Assembly (NCBI GenBank): GCA_029879555.1
Contig: JAOUQB010000039.1
Location: 1-11,625, forward strand
Origin: Nitrospirota bacterium
GTDB lineage: Bacteria > Nitrospirota > Nitrospiria > Nitrospirales > UBA8639
DNA length: 11,625 nt
Direction: 5' to 3'
Below the pieces are notes generated by a model. The model did not search any database. It saw nothing but the letters and a program-made list of their open reading frames with translations, and had not been told where the DNA came from. Positions 513 through 11,625 of this stretch are shown here, piece by piece. Each line of letters begins with the position of its first letter. The stretch's first letter is position 1. A program made the position numbers and the translations under genes.

Positions 513-573
513 TCGTAAGGCGTGAGGCGTCAGGCGAATAAGCATGTATCGCCTCACGCCTCACCCTTCACGC
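513..573. repeat. Heptamer palindrome copy A (short, gene-less)
   Basis: The left arm 513-537 contains GTAAGGC, GTGAGGC and GTCAGGC in tandem. After an 11-base loop, the right arm 549-573 carries the complementary GCCTCAC units and CACCCTTCACGC. Arms 517-537 and 549-568 pair over about 20 positions with one bulge and one or two mismatches. TTCATT occurs at 507-512 and again at 574-579, directly outside the arms; the second copy overlaps the stop codon of the dCache receptor (578-580). There is no U-run after the hairpin, so it is not a standard intrinsic terminator. Confidence 0.75.
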
Positions 574-577
574 TTCA

Positions 578-2791
578 TTAGAATTCTTCAAAAAAGTCAT
601 CGTCCCCTTTCGAGACACTCTTCCCATTGCCGCTTCCGACGCCTACCGGTTGTGGCGCAGCCTTAACCGGCGCCTTGGCATGGCTTGGGGACTTCGCTTT
701 TGGCGCTGCAGCCGGCTTGCTTCCGCCGGTTGGACGCATAGGCTCACGTGGGGCCAAGCCCGAACTGGCTTCAGTGACCTTAAAGAACGCCACTTGCTCC
801 AAAAGTGCTCCGGCTTGCTGTTTCATGGATTGGGAGGCGGAGGTCGCCTCCTCCACGAGCGCCGCATTTTGTTGCGTGCCTTGATCCATTTGCATCACCG
901 CTTTATTCACCTGGTCGATGCCGCTCGCCTGCTCCTGCGACGCCGCACTGATTTCGGCAATGATGTCCGTCACCCGCTTCACCGAGTTGACGATCTCAGA
1001 GAGGGTCTGACCCGATTGATTCACCAATTCGCTGCCATCCCCGACTTTCTGAACGGATTCATTAATCAGCGATTTGATCTCTTTGGCGGCTGTGGCCGAG
1101 CGTTGTGCCAAGTTCCGCACTTCCGAGGCGACCACGGCAAACCCTCGACCTTGCTCACCGGCACGAGCCGCTTCCACCGCCGCATTCAACGCCAAGAGGT
1201 TCGTTTGGAAGGCGATTTCATCAATCACATTAATAATATCCGCAATTTTCTTACTGCTCTTATTAATTTCATCCATAGCGTTGACGGCTTTATCCGTAAC
1301 CGCGCCACCCTTTTCGGCCACTTCCCGTGCGGCAACGGCCAACTGATTGGCCTGCTTGGCATTATCGGCGTTTTGCTTGATGGTGGAGGTCATCTCTTCC
1401 ATCGAGGCACTGGTTTCTTCTAACGCGCCGGCTTGCGCCGACGTGCGTTGCGACAGATCCTCATTGCCTTGCGTGATTTCACTGGAGGCGGTCGAGACAT
1501 GATCGGCCGCTTGGCGCACCTCTCCCACGACATTGGCAATATTATCCAACATCACATTCATCGCGGACCCCAATGTGCCTAATTCATCCTTGGACGACAC
1601 AGTCACGCGGGAGGTCAAATCGCCTTCCGCGGCTCGCTGAGCCACTTGACTGACTTGAATGATGCTGGCGGCACCTCGACGACCGACCCACAAACCAATC
1701 ACCACAATCAAAGCCAGACACACGATCGCCGTCATCATTAAATTACGATTGAAGGCCATCGCGGCAGCCAAGGCTTCTTCTTTCGGCATCCGAACCAACA
1801 CCGACCAATTCATGCCCGGATAACCAAGGGCCCCTTTCAAATGGGTATAGCCGGCAAGCTGGTCGATGCCCTTTCGTGCGTGCGTAGCAATCATATTGCC
1901 CGTTTTTCCAGCAACGGCTAATTTCGCGGGTTCCACCCCTTTTTCCGCCAGATTGAGCTTAAACAAGACAGCCTCAAGATTATGAGTCACCTCCTCTTTG
2001 CCCTGGGCAACGGGATCATAATCCACGAGCACCTGACCTTTATCACCCAGAAGGGTGATCTCGGTTCCTGGATATCCGGCGGATTTAAGTTGCTGATACG
2101 ATGTCTGGACAATGCCTTCGACCAATGAGAAATCGACTCGGTTGGACCAATAGCCGATCAAATCCCCATCCACATACACCGGAGCCGAGAATCCCATCAC
2201 CAGCCCATCTTGACCGGGATAAGCAGCTTTCACATCCTCATCAATGTGAAGATCTTCGATAAACGTTCCCGTGAGCGTATCATTTCCAGGAGCCGTAAAA
2301 GGTTGTTTCGTGGTAAATTCCTTGGCTTGTAAGGCCTTAAACCAGGGCGCCTCTGCATATTTATTGGAATAAATCGCTGTGGTATCGATCGGATTGCCTT
2401 TGGCATCTTTGGAGTTAACCGCCATGACATCCCCCACCGGGTCCACCAGAATCATTAAGGAATAAATCCCATAGGTGGCAACATATTGGTTCATGGCATG
2501 GGCGATGGCATTATTCTCTTTGGAATACCAATGGTATCGTTCACCCACGATCTTGTTGAGCCCAAAGGCTTGAACGTCCCCATACCGTTCGGACAAATTT
2601 CGGTCGATGATATCTGCAACGGTGACCGCTGTAGACTCGACCCGTATTCCGGCCGCCTTTTCCATTTCTCCGGTGGCTGAATTTCCTAAATACCCCACCG
2701 CCGCCATCGGCACGATACCGAAGATGGCAAACAACACCACCAACTTTGTGGCAATTCCCCAACTCAAACATGTACTCATGACATTCTTCAT
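578..2791 (-). CDS. Methyl-accepting chemotaxis protein, dCache-HAMP-MA, 737 aa
   Basis: A transmembrane receptor that would sense a small ligand outside the membrane and control CheA. Visible parts in order: membrane segment about 12-33; a long periplasmic region 36-345 with dCache-like features ([16 protein letters not shown] at 117-132, APWFKAL at 148-154, FSAPVY at 201-206); second membrane segment 351-370; HAMP about 371-424; and a signalling domain 430-668. The hairpin tip is [20 protein letters not shown] at 523-542, followed by [20 protein letters not shown]. Adaptation-type segments [12 protein letters not shown] (456-467) and [12 protein letters not shown] (642-653) flank it. The length and sequence resemble the Tsr-like 36-heptad class. 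A Pro/Ala/Lys-rich linker (about 672-728) ends in FFEEF, which resembles the C-terminal CheR/CheB-docking pentapeptide (NWETF in E. coli) with Phe for Trp. AAGGAT lies 9 bases before the chosen ATG. The ligand cannot be told. Confidence 0.95.
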
Positions 2792-3536: not shown

Positions 3537-3630
3537 GTAAAGCGTGAAGCGTTAGGCGTAAGGGGGAAATTCCTTTTTCACATCTTCTCCGCCTTACGCC
3601 TTCCTCGCCTAACGCCTCACGTCTTCTGTC
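3537..3630. repeat. Heptamer palindrome copy B (short, gene-less)
   Basis: The left arm 3537-3564 reads GTAAAGC, GTGAAGC, GTTAGGC, GTAAGGG. The right arm 3591-3630 carries GCCTTAC, GCCTAAC and GCCTCAC units with pyrimidine spacers (on the minus strand GAAGACGTGAGGCG, a 14-mer also seen in the IVP cassette). TTCCTC stands directly outside both ends, at 3531-3536 and 3631-3636. The right copy contains part of the cheA stop codon (3635-3637). Confidence 0.72.
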
Positions 3631-3634
3631 TTCC

Positions 3635-5737
3635 TCACGCTGCTGCCGTATGGCCCACCCTGGCGAGTTTCGCCAGCCCTGGTACATCCAGAATCAACGC
3701 CACTTGTCCATCGCCCAAAATCGTGGCGCCCGAAATGGCCTCGACTTTTCGATAGTTTTGCTCCAGCGTTTTAATCACCACCTGCTGTTGGCCAGTCAAT
3801 TCGTCGACTAAGACCGCCACGCGCCTATTTTCGGCTTCCACAATGACTAATAAAGCTTGTACTGGGTCGGTATACTCCGGCGTAATATTGAATACCTCAT
3901 AGAGTCGGACCAAGGGCACCCATTCCCCGCGTAAATTCACCACTTCGCCTTTCCCGACAATACGCTGCAAATCGCTAGGTTTGGGGCGAATGGACTCCGT
4001 GACGGTAATGAGCGGAATAATATAATTATCTTCTCCGACTCGAACCGTCATGCCATCAATAATGGCTAACGTCAGTGGTAACTTGAGAATCAGTTTTGAC
4101 CCTTTCCCTGCGGTGCTTTCAATGGAGACCGATCCACCTAAACCCTCAATATTCCGCTTTACGACATCCATGCCTACACCACGGCCGGACACATCCGTAA
4201 TCGTATCGGCGGTGGAAAACCCGGCCCGGAAAATGAGTTGATAGATATCTTGATCACTCATGGAGGCTCCATCGGCAATCAGGCCCCGCTCAACCGCTTT
4301 TTTAACAATTTTTTCTCGATTCAACCCTCGTCCATCGTCTTCCACTGCCACACAAATATTGCCGCCATCATGATAGGCATGGAGACGCACCGTCCCGCGT
4401 TCAGGTTTCCCCGCAGCCACGCGTTCTTCTGGCCCCTCCAATCCATGATCAGCGGAATTGCGCACCAAATGGGTCAGAGGATCACCGATCGCTTCGATCA
4501 GCGTTTTATCGAGTTCCGTTTCTTCACCAGACATGACGAGCTGGATCTGTTTCCCGCTCTTCCCGGCCAAATCCCGGACTAAACGTGGGAAGCGGTGGAA
4601 GGCCGACCCGATCGGCATCATGCGAATGGACATGACCCGCTCTTGCAGCTCCCGCGTGTTGCGCTCTAATTGCACGATTCGTTCTTGCAACACGGGTAAT
4701 TGGCTCATGGTAAATTTCTCACCCAAATCGGTAATCATCGATTGGGTGATCACGAGTTCTCCGACCAAATTGATGAGTTTATCGATTTTTTCGGTATCCA
4801 CTCGAATGGAGGCCGCTTCGCCTTTTTTAAGCTGTTGCTGCTTTTGCAGGACCTTATCGACTTGTTGAGGGGTGACCTTTTTCTCGTCGACCAGAATTTC
4901 CCCCAACGGCTTTTGTTTCGCGAGACTATCGGAAATGTCTCCCGGGGTGATGGCGCCTTCCTCGACTAACAGTTCCCCAACCCGTTTATACGGTTCGGCC
5001 TGTTTGGGCGCACAATCGGTCATCGTCAATTCACTCCCGTCCCGCACAAAATCAAACACGGCTTCCACTTTGGCCAGTGGCACATCCGTTTCCAGTTCGA
5101 TGGCCCAACTTAAATAGCATCGCTCAGGATCCATACTTTCTAACGACGGCAACTGATCCGTTTGCACCTGAAGGGCTTTGACCATGCCCAATTCATGCAG
5201 CTCCTTGAAAATTTGGGCCGGATCTAATCCGCGTTGAAACAATTCCGGTAAGGGGACCCACGCAATTTTTATCAGACGCCACAGATTGGCGGGTGGAGCC
5301 ACCGGGGCTGCGACTTCAGCGGAAGGCACCGGTGCCGCACTGCCGCTATCTCCGTCTTGACAGGCTTGCAGTTCTTGCTCCAACCCGTGAATCACGGCTT
5401 CTTCAGGTTCCCCTCCCCCTTGAGCCGCATCCAATAAGCTTTTCAGGCCATCGAGGGATCGCAGCAACACGTCCACGCCATGGGGCGTCACCGGGATTTT
5501 TTCGTTCCGCATGAGATCCAGCACGTTTTCCATTTTATGCGTGAGTCCCGCAATGGCGGTGAAGTTGAACATGCCCGCATTGCCTTTAATGGAATGTGCC
5601 GCTCGAAAGATCCGGTTCAATAAGTCCAAATCTTGGGGACGTTGTTCCAACTCCAAAAACCCGGACTCCATCGTTTCGACATGCTCCGCCGATTCCATAA
5701 AAAACGATTCCTGAAAATGCGAGAGATCAACAGCCAT
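3635..5737 (-). CDS. cheA: Chemotaxis histidine kinase CheA, 700 aa
   Basis: The kinase that autophosphorylates on receptor signal and passes phosphate to CheY. Domains: HPt 1-105 with phosphorylated His48 in AAHSIKGN; a second domain about 151-242, perhaps the response-regulator-binding part, containing ERCYLSWAIELETD; a helical insert 250-300 with two half-repeats, VGELLVEEGAIT and LGEILVDEKKVT, like the N-terminal bundle of MshE/GspE ATPases; P3 dimerisation 308-370 (IDKLINLVGELVITQS); P4 ATPase 375-555 with the N box HLVRNSADHGLE (423-434), DDGRGL (467-472) and SGRGVGMDVV (517-526); and the CheW-like P5 558-695. All catalytic motifs are intact. The start overlaps the IVP stop as TAATG, and the site AAAGGAG lies inside the IVP coding end, so translation may be coupled. 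The stop codon lies at the edge of palindrome copy B. Confidence 0.97.
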   Translation of the reverse strand: MAVDLSHFQESFFMESAEHVETMESGFLELEQRPQDLDLLNRIFRAAHSIKGNAGMFNFTAIAGLTHKMENVLDLMRNEKIPVTPHGVDVLLRSLDGLKSLLDAAQGGGEPEEAVIHGLEQELQACQDGDSGSAAPVPSAEVAAPVAPPANLWRLIKIAWVPLPELFQRGLDPAQIFKELHELGMVKALQVQTDQLPSLESMDPERCYLSWAIELETDVPLAKVEAVFDFVRDGSELTMTDCAPKQAEPYKRVGELLVEEGAITPGDISDSLAKQKPLGEILVDEKKVTPQQVDKVLQKQQQLKKGEAASIRVDTEKIDKLINLVGELVITQSMITDLGEKFTMSQLPVLQERIVQLERNTRELQERVMSIRMMPIGSAFHRFPRLVRDLAGKSGKQIQLVMSGEETELDKTLIEAIGDPLTHLVRNSADHGLEGPEERVAAGKPERGTVRLHAYHDGGNICVAVEDDGRGLNREKIVKKAVERGLIADGASMSDQDIYQLIFRAGFSTADTITDVSGRGVGMDVVKRNIEGLGGSVSIESTAGKGSKLILKLPLTLAIIDGMTVRVGEDNYIIPLITVTESIRPKPSDLQRIVGKGEVVNLRGEWVPLVRLYEVFNITPEYTDPVQALLVIVEAENRRVAVLVDELTGQQQVVIKTLEQNYRKVEAISGATILGDGQVALILDVPGLAKLARVGHTAAA

Positions 5738-6159
5738 TATTTAACTCCTTTGTGGGTGGGCTGAATTTGCGTCTTATCGTGAGGGGTGAGGCGTAAAGCG
5801 TGAGGGGATTTCTTAAGACGAATCAGTCCACTAAGCATTTTATCGATACGATTCATTGTTGTTTCTAAGTCACTCCAATCATTTTGAGACAAAACACCAA
5901 GCCGATTGGTAATTTCTAACTGAGTATCCAATTCGCTTAAAGAACCTTGCGCAATATGCAAAAACTGAATAAATTCTTTTGAAGTTTGTCGACCTGCCCC
6001 TTCAGCAATGTTGCTAGGAATACTCACAGCCGCTCTGCGTATTTGATTCACCAGACCATACGTTTCCTTTTCGGGAAAATTTTTCGAAACACCGTACACG
6101 TCAGTAACTAATTGCATCGCCATATTCCACACATCTAATTTTTTATGCGGCTTCTCCAA
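5737..6159 (-). CDS. Four-helix-bundle protein, 23S rRNA intervening-sequence (S23/IVP) family, 140 aa
   Basis: A small helical protein of the family first found in intervening sequences of 23S rRNA; family function is unknown, with nucleic-acid binding suspected. The core is 7-117, with the signature KLDVWNMAMQLV (7-18), FPEKETYGLVNQIRRAA (28-44), SIPSNIAEGAGR (46-57) and FLHIAQGSLSELDTQLEI (66-83). The start is TTG at 6157-6159, set by the family start EKPHKKLDVW and by AGGA 6 bases upstream. An ATG at 6164-6166 with GGAGG is out of frame and opens only 7 codons. Residues 118-140 are not family sequence: SPHALRLTPH is a translation of the palindrome arm, and the rest is the old cheA leader, ending TAATG on the cheA start. 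GC is 121 of 300 (40%) at 5821-6120 against 158 of 300 (53%) in adjoining cheA (5401-5700), a sign of transfer. Nothing ties it to chemotaxis. Confidence 0.88.
   Translation of the reverse strand: MEKPHKKLDVWNMAMQLVTDVYGVSKNFPEKETYGLVNQIRRAAVSIPSNIAEGAGRQTSKEFIQFLHIAQGSLSELDTQLEITNRLGVLSQNDWSDLETTMNRIDKMLSGLIRLKKSPHALRLTPHDKTQIQPTHKGVK
5778..5807. repeat. Left arm of the IVP cassette (heptamer palindrome copy C)
   Basis: Tandem heptamers GTGAGGG, GTGAGGC, GTAAAGC, GTGAGGG on the plus strand. On the minus strand this arm is read as the C-terminal codons of the IVP gene (residues SPHALRLTPH). Confidence 0.75.
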
Positions 6160-6200
6160 GCTTCATCCTACCTCCGACTCCTCGTCTATCGACTTATTTC

Positions 6201-6259
6201 GGCTTACGTCTTAATCGCCTTACGCTTCACGGCTTCTCCGCCTCCCGCCTTACGCCTCA
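6201..6259. repeat. Right arm of the IVP cassette (heptamer palindrome copy C)
   Basis: On the minus strand it reads GTGAGGC, GTAAGGC, GGGAGGC, then GTGAAGC, GTAAGGC and a degenerate GTAAGCC, with purine-rich spacers. Its outermost 20 bases pair with 5786-5805. A 10-mer, GGAGAAGCCG, is present here (6230-6239) and again over the IVP start region (6148-6157). Confidence 0.72.
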
Positions 6260-6265
6260 CGTCTT

Positions 6266-6637
6266 CTACCCGGGCAGAACTTTTTTGATCGTCGCGAGCA
6301 TTTGTTCGGGGTTGAAGGGCTTCACGACCCATCCCGTGGCGCCAGCGCCTTGGCCTTCCTTCTTTTTGTCATCCGACGATTCGGTGGTGAGCATGAGAAT
6401 CGGAGTAAATTTATGAGCCCCCATGGCGCGAATGGCCTTAATCAAGGAAATGCCATCCATGTTGGGCATATTCAAATCCGTAATAACCAAATTCGGCTTG
6501 GCTCCCCCGTTGAGCTTATCGACGGCTTCTTTTCCATCGCCGGCTTCGACCACCTCATACCCAGCCCCGGTCAGTGTAAAACTCACCATTTGCCGCATGG
6601 AAACGGAATCATCAACTACGAGTACGGTCTTGCCCAT
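6266..6637 (-). CDS. cheY: Chemotaxis response regulator CheY, 123 aa
   Basis: A single receiver domain that carries phosphate from CheA to the flagellar switch. The acidic pair is Asp9-Asp10 (VLVVDDS), the phosphorylated residue Asp54 (LVITDLNMPNMDG), the switch Thr84 (LMLTTES) and Lys106 (VVKPF). Position 103 is Trp, where many CheY proteins have Tyr or another aromatic. Length is standard and there is no output domain. AGAGGGA stands about 6 bases before the ATG. It is 185 bases downstream of the short MA-domain receptor, with palindrome copy D between, and its stop codon is immediately followed by the IVP cassette that separates it from cheA. Since cheY-cheA are usually adjacent, this is the best sign that the cassette is a late arrival. 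Confidence 0.96.
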   Translation of the reverse strand: MGKTVLVVDDSVSMRQMVSFTLTGAGYEVVEAGDGKEAVDKLNGGAKPNLVITDLNMPNMDGISLIKAIRAMGAHKFTPILMLTTESSDDKKKEGQGAGATGWVVKPFNPEQMLATIKKVLPG

Positions 6638-6708: not shown

Positions 6709-6819
6709 CGTAAAGCGTTAGGCGTTAGGCGAGTTTTCCCTGACCCCACTTCTTACGTCAAATTCTCTGCCCGTCTTTCGTCTTTCTCGCTTCACATCTT
6801 CCTCGCTTCACCCTTCGCG
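6709..6819. repeat. Heptamer palindrome copy D (short, gene-less)
   Basis: Left arm 6709-6732: GTAAAGC, GTTAGGC, GTTAGGC. The right part 6751-6819 is a looser pyrimidine-rich stretch with CGCTTCAC and CACCCTTCGCG units; pairing is weaker than in copies A and C. TCTTT stands directly outside both ends (6704-6708 and 6820-6824), the right copy overlapping the stop codon of the short receptor (6823-6825). Confidence 0.65.
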
Positions 6820-6822
6820 TCT

Positions 6823-7959
6823 TTAAAACAAGGTGACAGAATCGCCGTCGTCAGTGCCACTCGTTGTTCCCACCAAGACGGCCTCTTGCCCAGCATGGGC
6901 GGCTTCGATCGTGAGTCGTTCCGACTCCATCGTATAGCCATGTTTCAAGTTCCGAAGTTCTTCGATCACGTCGGTCATCGTCTCAACTCCACCCGTTGCT
7001 TGGGCGGCCACATGCAATGGGGCATAAATACGTTCGAGCGGTTCATAGACATGTTCGATTTTTTGTCGGGTAATGTCCTGAAATTGCATAGACATGACGA
7101 TTTGTCCAATATCTTGCCCAAGCTCCTTGGCCCGCCCCGAGTTTTGCCCCACACTTTTTTTCAATGCCGAATTCTTCGCAACCATCACTTCGGTCATAGC
7201 CATAATGTTTTGTTGCGCTTGCAAGGTTGTCGTCAGATCCAAGGCCGCGAGAACTTGCAACTCAGCCATCGCTGATTCCGTCGTCCCTTTCACAGCGGTG
7301 GCCAATGCCCGGATTTGTTCAGCCGCCTGGGCGGAACGATTGGCCAGTTTCGTCACTTCATCTGCGACGACCGCAAATCCTCGGCCATGTTCCCCGGCTC
7401 GCGCCGCCTCAATGGCCGCATTCAAGGCCAGCAAGCGCGTTTGATCCGCGATAAACTCCACTTCTTCCACCACTTCTGAAATGCGCGAGGTGGTTTCTAC
7501 GGCTTCCTCCATGACACTGACCGTCGAAACGGTAACCGTTGCCGTTTGGGTCACTTGATCCACAAACATTTGCATCGTATCTTTGGTCTTATTCAGAATC
7601 GTCTCGACACTCATCCCATCGTCATCCCCTTCACCCATACTCAGGATCGTTTCCGTCTCAAAGGCCGATTCCCGGGCCTGTTGGGATATTCGTTGAAATC
7701 GCTGAATGAGGCCCCCGGCCGCTTGCTCCGTTTCTTGAATCACGGCCTTGAGCTGCCCGACGAAGACCGGGAAGGTTGGCGCGAGGCAAGCGCAAAATTC
7801 TTTCCAATTCTGCTGAACCTTGGTCTGCACCATGGCGGCTTCCTGCAATTGGCGTTCAAGATTCCCGACTTTGGATTGGCTGGTACGACGCCCCACGCCA
7901 TATCCCACACCCCCACCCACAAGCAGACACAGTCCCCACATCATCCAATCAATCGCCAC
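6823..7959 (-). CDS. Short membrane-anchored MA-domain chemotaxis protein with CheZ-like motif, 378 aa
   Basis: A receptor-like protein without periplasmic sensor or HAMP. One N-terminal membrane segment (4-22) is followed by a helical region with [19 protein letters not shown] (62-80), then an MA signalling domain about 115-285 with the tip [20 protein letters not shown] (171-190) and [20 protein letters not shown]. After it comes [20 protein letters not shown] (289-308), close to the CheZ active-site helix (QDFQDLTGQVIKR in E. coli): Asp295 and Gln299 have the same spacing as CheZ Asp143 and Gln147. MA proteins with an FQDITRQ tail are a known type, so phosphatase activity is only a possibility. 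The start is GTG at 7957-7959 with AGAGGTG just upstream; an out-of-frame ATG overlaps it. The gene lies 61 bases after the STAS gene and is probably co-transcribed with it. Confidence 0.9.
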
Positions 7960-11150: not shown

Positions 11151-11178
11151 TTGGTGTGTGACTGCATCTTTGTATAAT
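11151..11178 (+). promoter_or_regulatory. Candidate plus-strand promoter reading into palindrome copy E
   Basis: TTGGTG (11151-11156), a 16-base gap and a perfect TATAAT (11173-11178). The start site would fall near 11185, inside the left arm of copy E, so the RNA would cover the palindrome and run antisense to the phosphatase gene end. The -35 match is only 3 of 6 and there is no plus-strand gene downstream. Confidence 0.25.
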
Positions 11179-11179
11179 C

Positions 11180-11366
11180 CGTCAGGCGTGGGGCGTCAGG
11201 CGTCAGGGGGTAAGGCGAGAAAGAAACGCCGTGAAGGGTAAGGCGATAACCCGTTTGACTGGTCAATCCCACGCTTCACGCTTTTTCCTTTCGCCTCACG
11301 CCTTCCGTCCTATTACACTTCACGTCTTCTTCGCCTCACGTCTTTTTCCCGCCTCACGCTTTACGA
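11180..11366. repeat. Heptamer palindrome copy E (long, gene-less)
   Basis: Left arm 11180-11245: GTCAGGC, GTGGGGC, GTCAGGC, GTCAGGG, GTAAGGC, GTGAAGG, GTAAGGC. The apex 11255-11266 is itself an inverted repeat (TTGAC/GTCAA). The right arm 11270-11366 has many GCCTCAC and CACGTCTT units; on the minus strand it opens with TCGTAAAGCGTGAGGC, the same end sequence as the left ends of copies B and D. It supplies the last codons (SRKA) and stop of the phosphatase gene. Only a 4-base AAAG is found outside both ends. Confidence 0.72.
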
Positions 11367-11625
11367 CTTTCACTTTCCGAAGATTTTTCATGCCACTCCA
11401 ATCCGATGACGGCCACGTCGTCCCCAAATATTCCATCGACCTGCCACGCTCGACTGGAATGGATCAGACTTTTTAACCCTAATTTCATTGGGCGTGTATA
11501 CACACCCTCTAGAGCCGCCTGCAACCGTCCTCTCCCCCAAATTTCATCATTGGCATTGACCACCTCATAAATGCCATCACTAAACACATACAGTCGATCA
11601 TGATTGGCAAGGCTGATTGAGTTCG
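11354..11625 (-). CDS. PP2C/SpoIIE-type serine phosphatase, C-terminal part (5' end outside window)
   Basis: The frame is open from the window edge, with 89 residues visible before TGA at 11354-11356. HDRLYVFSDGIYEVVNA near its beginning and FGDDVAVIGLEW near its end are the two metal-binding Asp motifs of the SpoIIE/RsbU phosphatase family, which dephosphorylates STAS antagonists. The start codon and any N-terminal receiver or sensor domain lie outside the window. The final residues SRKA and the stop are encoded by the end of palindrome copy E, so the native C-terminus may have been changed. It is 237 bases upstream of the receiver-ATPase gene; with it and the STAS proteins it completes a phosphatase-kinase-antagonist set. 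Confidence 0.87.
   Translation of the reverse strand, partial: NSISLANHDRLYVFSDGIYEVVNANDEIWGRGRLQAALEGVYTRPMKLGLKSLIHSSRAWQVDGIFGDDVAVIGLEWHEKSSESESRKA

Follow-up and report, generated by a model that had tools for sequence, protein, structure and literature searches.

Intervening sequences (IVSs) of 23S rRNA, found in Leptospira, Coxiella and others, are the nearest known kind to the element described here. In both, a protein of the same family (23S_rRNA_IVP; PF05635/TIGR02436, hereafter IVP) is encoded in the loop of a stem with complementary ends. As far as PMC4990558 describes it, the Coxiella IVS is ∼430 nt long, carries tandem heptameric repeats upstream of the S23 open reading frame (ORF) as well as a terminal stem, and is excised by RNase III. 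The same account describes S23 proteins without a known function, and cites the structure of XCC0516 from Xanthomonas campestris for the pentameric state of IVP; structures of IVP relatives are available as PDB 2GSC (XCC0516) and 2RLD. The element presented here differs from the rRNA IVSs in its intergenic location in protein operons and plasmids, its inverted heptamers, its IVP-less hairpins and its empty sites.

Some features are shared with other repeat systems. RAYT genes are single-copy genes beside repeats that are dispersed as inverted pairs and fall into several groups, each group of repeats having its own gene (as outlined in PMC3116915). However, RAYT is a tyrosine transposase, whereas IVP is a four-helix bundle in which no catalytic domain was found, and the repeats of the IVP element are tandem heptamers instead of REP palindromes. 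Insertion sequences and MITEs also end in inverted repeats, leave short duplications on some of their insertions and have truncated or gene-less derivatives, but the IVP element is devoid of a transposase and its arms are tandem heptamers of element-specific sequence. Heptamer repeats have been reported piecemeal from cyanobacteria, Xanthomonas and Geobacter (in the relevant parts of PMC4692102 and PMC2700814). The GGGAATC heptamers of Xanthomonas are dispersed, largely intergenic, and form 70 (Xcc) and 75 (Xac) convergent pairs (as given in PMC4692102); the IVP whose structure was solved, XCC0516, is likewise from X. campestris. These heptamers were, on the other hand, described as G-quadruplex-forming, and the main text of PMC4692102 has no mention of xcc0516 or of four-helix. 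In stem P6b of the Nostoc tRNA-Leu intron, degenerate heptanucleotide repeats pair into a hairpin of variable length; this one is located in an intron, and the passages of PMC3488679 that describe it mention no IVP gene. By analogy, both the Xanthomonas heptamers and the Nostoc intron stems look like bearers of the IVP-element signature. Among the open-access matches listed (most subscription papers lie outside this scope), there was no description of a general link between IVP genes and heptamer arms.

We analysed a window, i.e. the whole stretch of 11,625 nt of Nitrospirota DNA, from an assembly (G000) of 3.2 Mb in 605 contigs that is 91.8% complete. A Pfam scan of nine ORFs identified the window as a chemotaxis cluster. 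Its features are as follows.

6266..6637, minus strand: cheY-like response regulator, the 5′ neighbour (ORF list and Pfam)
6213..6267, minus strand: 5′ arm, preceding IVP on the coding strand, a GTNAGGC-type heptamer array (scan segment 6217–6267, minus)
5737..6159, minus strand: IVP/four-helix-bundle gene, 140 aa, TTG start (Pfam and NCBIfam profile matches)
5778..5810, plus strand: 3′ arm, inverted heptamer array (scan segment 5779–5806, plus)
3635..5737, minus strand: cheA, the 3′ neighbour (ORF list and Pfam)
3537..3627, unstranded: IVP-less heptamer hairpin of the same heptamer type in the cheA–cheW gap (array scan)
6710..6830, unstranded: IVP-less heptamer hairpin in the gap that separates cheY from the MCP-domain gene (one of its arms is picked up by the scan, and its partner looks decayed)
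515..578, unstranded: IVP-less heptamer hairpin (scan: 515–542 plus, 551–578 minus)
11174..11378, unstranded: IVP-less heptamer hairpin with long arms (scan: 11174–11251 plus, 11286–11378 minus)

The original prediction, made from the sequence of this window, had placed an IVP gene between cheY and cheA, and the profile searches bore this out. The ORF at 5737–6159 (minus strand) matched PF05635 (E = 5.5e-41; 139.5 bits against a cut-off of 33.8) and TIGR02436 (129.5 bits against 24); both scores exceed the curated cut-offs and thus place it in the family. This copy was the only IVP gene found in the genome. Pfam and NCBIfam scans of the protein returned only IVP, four-helix-bundle, PRK12275-type and Avd families and no transposase, and this IVP is the single ORF of the element, which therefore lacks the encoded transposase of an insertion sequence. 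The match to PF22296 (bAvd) was weak (E = 1.1e-6, below its cut-off). It likens IVP to the bAvd proteins of diversity-generating retroelements as a related fold family, although a reverse transcriptase was absent from the nine window ORFs scanned.

The 5′ arm begins immediately past the cheY stop codon and the 3′ arm ends ahead of the cheA ribosome-binding site. The IVP reading frame is co-oriented with the che genes. It runs through the 3′ arm to the C-terminus of the protein and ends in a TAA stop that shares one base with the ATG of cheA. The low GC content noted for the gene was confirmed (40.7% for the ORF and 39% for its core, compared to 52.1% for cheA and 52.4% for cheY). The arms that had been proposed as 18/20 inverted repeats are indeed 20 nt long and 90% complementary (5786–5805 and 6241–6260), and are not peculiar to the IVP cassette. 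The proposal of an IVS-like layout outside rRNA also held: the same protein family is encoded between complementary ends enclosing the S23 ORF, and the site is not within 23S rRNA but between cheY and cheA. An Rfam scan of the window gave no family at the gathering score. Folding of the cassette transcript had been suggested as a check; in the structure of minimum energy the two arms are indeed paired, but the whole fold was no more stable than that of shuffled sequences (z = +0.76), and we rejected whole-cassette RNA stability as support.

We consider it likely, with a probability of about 0.8, that the cassette at cheY–cheA is a resident member of a family of mobile elements, each consisting of one IVP gene between inverted, lineage-specific heptamer arrays. 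The best reading of the data presented below is an IVS-like mobile element, without a recognisable transposase, accompanied by MITE- or REPIN-like IVP-less derivatives.

We collected 68 IVP loci, comprising the window, 29 loci found in relatives with the Pfam model and 38 found by similarity in named genomes. Scoring was feasible for 66 (L054 and L059 have no IVP match and were dropped), and removal of the duplicates L080 (of L032) and L095 (of L044) left 64 loci for the arm, period and similarity tests. The arm score compares the sequence upstream of the IVP core with the reverse complement of that downstream. A score of at least 24 was reached by 49/64 IVP loci and, among further ORFs from these loci that served as controls, by 8/144 (p = 6e-19); a score of at least 40 was reached by 14/64 and 3/144, respectively. 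Both sources of loci contributed (23/28 for the Pfam model and 26/36 for similarity). The mean autocorrelation of the flanks of the 64 loci was 0.372 at lag 7, 0.346 at lag 14 and 0.316 at lag 21 over a background of ∼0.27, and among lags 4–12, seven was the best repeat period in 51/64 loci. When orthologues were merged into 37 distinct loci, 31 had the arms and 29 the 7-nt period. Only 2/64 loci had neither strong arms nor a best period of 7. These results show that the inverted-heptamer layout is general for IVP genes across phyla.

The heptamer itself varies by lineage (GTGATGG, CGTATYT, GGTTGGA, GTGAGAT and others). Arms were more similar to their own partner (0.464) than to the arms of other loci (0.378) or to the partner in direct orientation (0.376), while the own partner was the best match of all 64 for only 14/64 upstream arms. 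The closer two IVPs are in sequence identity, the more similar are their heptamers, and this extends to comparisons between phyla (rho = 0.286; equalled in 0/500 permutations; 63 loci). Matching of arms to their home 10-kb flanks gave rank 1 in 7/34 cases, which we found too weak to be used as support. Five Bacteroidota loci from several families (L099, L101, L103, L104 and L107) have the IVP gene at one conserved position, and this copy is old and perhaps domesticated.

The window was also scanned for three tandem copies of GTVARGC. Eleven array segments were found, forming four inward-facing site pairs and one single, compared to none in the reversed window and a total of five in 20 shuffles. 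The notion of a heptamer cassette unique to cheY–cheA was rejected, as arrays occur elsewhere in both the window and the genome. In the G000 genome, a related pattern with two mismatches allowed gave 85 overlapping matches (reversed control, 0). Among neighbouring arrays, as surveyed in the window, in the contigs examined and at 14 loci of G000, 26 pairs faced inward, none outward and eight lay on the same strand. Heptamer hairpins are found in several of the che cluster's gaps, e.g. at 6710–6830 and 3537–3627.

AAGACG had been noted on both sides of the cassette as a possible insertion footprint. The sequence is present as stated (CGTCTT, AAGACG on the minus strand, at 5770–5775 and 6260–6265), but the footprint was not upheld. 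On that strand of the window CGTCTT occurs 12 times, nine of which are within or beside heptamer hairpins, and the right-hand position reads AAGATG in the orthologous cassette of G004 and AAGATA in those of G001 and G009. We rejected AAGACG as a target duplication because it is part of the arrays and its right copy is not common to the orthologues; the ends of the cheY–cheA copy thus show no target duplication.

Next, we compared the cheY–cheA site among relatives. The junction was readable in 14 of 20 members of the genus. An IVP gene is present at this site in 9/20 members (G000, G001, G002, G004, G005, G009, G013, G018 and G019) and also in G027 of another genus; the copies of G019 and G018 have stop codons and that of G027 a frameshift. 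Removal of the cassette body had been predicted to leave a 44-base junction, and the distance from the cheY stop to the cheA ATG is 45 nt in G006 and 46 nt in G007, both IVP-less, which is close to this length; in G017 the spacer is ∼115 nt. The junctions of G016 and G003 are ∼440–450 nt long with no detectable IVP, and we read them, by eye, as decayed cassettes.

G004 and G005 are sisters in the CheA tree (100/100) and 90% identical from cheA onward. In the interval from the cheY stop codon to the start of cheA, however, they differ: G004 has GTNAGGC arms and G005 has GAAGTRA arms, and their IVP genes are 67% identical over 240 nt. In the IVP tree, G004 groups with G000 (99/86) and G005, weakly, with G018 (99/44). 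At eight hairpin sites, including cheY–cheA, in 51 kb of synteny between the two genomes, with heptamer types assigned by eye, the type was swapped at four, kept at three and the hairpin missing from G005 at one; a ninth G004 hairpin, at 17002, is outside this comparison. The G005 hairpin at the cheA–cheW position is of the GAAGTRA type. Both types are present genome-wide in both G004 and G005. A pair of loci in other genomes, L038 (G053) and L052 (G040), represents the same position with flanks 80–82% identical, distant IVP genes and different arms, and is perhaps a second cassette swap of the G004/G005 kind.

The dN/dS of IVP was 0.127 for G000/G004 over the 111 codons of the intact core, 0.305 for G001/G009, 0.61 for G002/G013 (which looks decayed) and 0.618 for G001/G002; four further pairs gave no dS. 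By the first of these ratios, purifying selection acts on IVP between G000 and G004, the closest of its relatives that bear IVP. The cassette is old because it occurs in 9/20 genus members and in a member of another genus, and as it is swapped, decayed or missing in relatives and the trees are discordant, the site is both old and labile. To judge from sequence comparison, therefore, the window cassette is an old resident, and a recent insertion is not supported. The original prediction had asked whether relatives carry IVP here in step with the che phylogeny: the site is occupied in relatives, yet discordantly with the cheA tree.

We then related IVP presence to dispersed arrays by counting four tandem copies of GTNANNN in 59 genomes (overlapping matches, uncorrected for kinship). 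The median count was 43 in genomes with IVP (n = 29) and 2 in those without (n = 30; p = 2e-4). It was 15 (n = 21) against 1.5 (n = 20) at completeness of at least 90% (p = 1e-4), and 43 (n = 15) against 1 (n = 11) at completeness of at least 98% (p = 6e-4). The reversed control was above zero in some genomes, up to 19 in G055. Two genomes with IVP had few arrays (G009, 4; G013, 5). Array-rich genomes with no IVP detected were G010 (64), G045 (65) and G014 (59), all 81–87% complete, and G046, G049 and G056, at 99% completeness, had no detected IVP and 14–20 arrays. The scattered IVP-less arrays appear to be descendants or dependants of the IVP element.

The CGTATYT type, from the IVP arms of G031, was found in 4/59 genomes, three of which belong to one genus, and all have IVP. 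Eleven of the 12 exact CGTATYT matches of G031 surround its IVP gene; degenerate arrays of this type also occur elsewhere within the 400 kb surveyed. The period survey of these 400 kb was noisy at long lags (lag 15 was the commonest, in shuffles too), and only lags 7 and 14 were read. At G031:C1:1882000-1885600 (L152), CGTATYT arrays gather at a single IVP gene, reminiscent of REPINs that cluster next to a RAYT gene. The GAGKRCT type of the G051 arms was found in 6/59 genomes (G042, G046, G049, G050, G051 and G056), and only G050 and G051 have an IVP match. A GAGKRCT pattern derived from the G051 and G057 arms was rejected as tracking IVP, being present in four genomes with no IVP detected and absent from G057; from its distribution over the six genomes, this type goes with genus and not with IVP presence. 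Dispersed inverted pairs matching the arms beside IVP were seen in G000 and, by eye, in G026 and G033, but not in G050, where the dispersed GTTANNC arrays do not match the IVP arms. In genus g16 (G045, G050, G042 and G052), it is mainly the two N of the GTTANNC hairpins that vary, with arms ∼50–65 bp apart.

A protein search yielded 42 plasmid records with an IVP relative, mostly cyanobacterial, of which 18 formed an independent sample (ORF ends were set by hand for the unannotated L198 and L199). Inverted arms with a score of at least 24 were present in 15/18, compared to 32/306 mismatched pairs. The autocorrelation of the flanks at lag 7 was 0.419, and lag 7 was the best in 13/18. The exceptions were L193 and L202, with heptamers in direct orientation on both sides, and L189, with weak arms. 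The elements of L187 and L188 are antisense to both of their neighbours. Among 50,697 phage records there was no IVP match.

Three of the plasmid loci, L195, L196 and L200, share 416–419 bp containing IVP and its arms at 78–82% identity in unrelated flanks, with no further mutual match of at least 200 bp. A different element of ∼440–450 bp is shared at 87% identity, again in unrelated flanks, by L051 (G034) and L057 (G015, another genus). Flank searches found element-free records for four filled regions; that for L187 recovered only L187 itself and no empty site. The target bases of five filled/empty pairs were read by eye, as were L209 and L204. Duplications were seen of GTAAT (or TAAT) in L196 against L203 (flanks 98% identical), of TTCTA in L200 against L197, and of ATG in L197 against L210/L211. 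Bases were replaced, with no duplication, in L195 against L205 (about eight target bases) and in L191 against L208 (intergenic bases). A stop codon is the insertion point in four of the five cases (L196, L200, L197 and L191), and the element of L195 lies within the 3′ end of a small ORF. In another Nostoc plasmid, L209, the L191 site is occupied by an IVP-less hairpin built of similar heptamers, and L204 has a truncated copy, with the left arm and part of IVP, at the L196 site. From the five pairs together with L209 and L204, we concluded that whole elements insert and that IVP-less hairpins can occupy element sites. The same element family at unrelated sites, along with its empty sites, shows that it is mobile on cyanobacterial plasmids. 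The original prediction of a mobile element therefore stands for such elements on plasmids but not as a recent insertion at cheY–cheA. A counterpoint to our explanation is that the duplications are inconsistent (5, 5 and 3 bp, and none in the two pairs with replaced bases).

In the mechanism that we propose, an IVP pentamer would bind the heptamer arms, whether these are present as a duplex, as a cruciform, as a single strand or as RNA. Once bound, it might promote copying or insertion of its own element in cis, and could act in trans on IVP-less hairpins to promote their copying. The strand chemistry would be performed by host enzymes, as the element encodes none. That no nuclease, recombinase or polymerase is encoded counts against IVP as the mover, and this role is our inference. 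An RNA step is possible, given the weak Avd match and the fact that RNase III cleaves rRNA IVSs. More tentatively, and at somewhat less than even odds, IVP could be the trans-acting factor of bacterium-wide genome parasites, in which each lineage reads its own heptamer and inserts or rewrites intergenic hairpins, including heptamer-type switches at fixed sites such as those between G004 and G005, without a known transposase, recombinase or polymerase; the rRNA IVSs and the cyanobacterial and Xanthomonas heptamers would then be members or by-products. Linking S23/IVP proteins with heptamer repeats gives them a class of function and a testable recognition code, and a mobile element whose sole product is a four-helix bundle would offer a new solution to the problem of DNA mobility.

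The heptamer hairpins could themselves be the spreading entity, moved by another activity, with IVP genes as cargo in their loops. Such a role would suit the 85 overlapping array matches of G000 against one IVP gene, the persistence of arrays in some genomes where IVP was not found, and the lack of an enzyme in IVP. We think it unlikely, as heptamer similarity tracks IVP identity across phyla, hardly any IVP locus is without both strong arms and the 7-nt period, and the G000/G004 core is under purifying selection. That the cassette works mainly as an intervening sequence at the RNA level, its arms pairing in the che mRNA and RNase III cutting there to separate the cheY and cheA messages, with mobility secondary, is possible, though we would wager against it. 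The RNase III excision of the heptamer-bearing Coxiella rRNA IVS (as reported in PMC4990558), the pairing of the arms in the predicted fold and the hairpins in several che gaps agree with it; the unremarkable stability of the whole fold and the antisense orientation of L187 and L188 do not.

An ordinary, immobile operon gene, inherited vertically and flanked by regulatory hairpins, would account for the same site being used in nine genus members and G027, and for the locus shared by five Bacteroidota. This is very improbable here and, for the family, is contradicted by the empty and unrelated insertion sites, while at cheY–cheA the cassette types conflict with the cheA tree. It is scarcely credible that IVP serves CRISPR-Cas or another system as an accessory, even though IVP genes were noted in cas loci (in a passage of PMC3936711), IVP is named in the legend to a figure from a CRISPR-association screen (PMC10910872), and 3/18 plasmid IVPs lie between cas genes (L190, cas6–cas4; L192, cas10–cmr3; L193, cas6–cas4). 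L190 and L192 carry the usual inverted arms, L193 has its heptamers in direct orientation, and the nine window ORFs scanned include no cas gene. Hitchhiking between cas genes may explain the appearance of IVP in such screens.

Long perfect tandem heptamer arrays, of at least 10 units, were found at G005:C38:3-125, G004:C51:27785-27893, G033:C11:25754-25869 and G026:C27:1115-1195. One of the four stands at the start of its contig, and arrays of this kind may break assemblies and be places where expansion is active.
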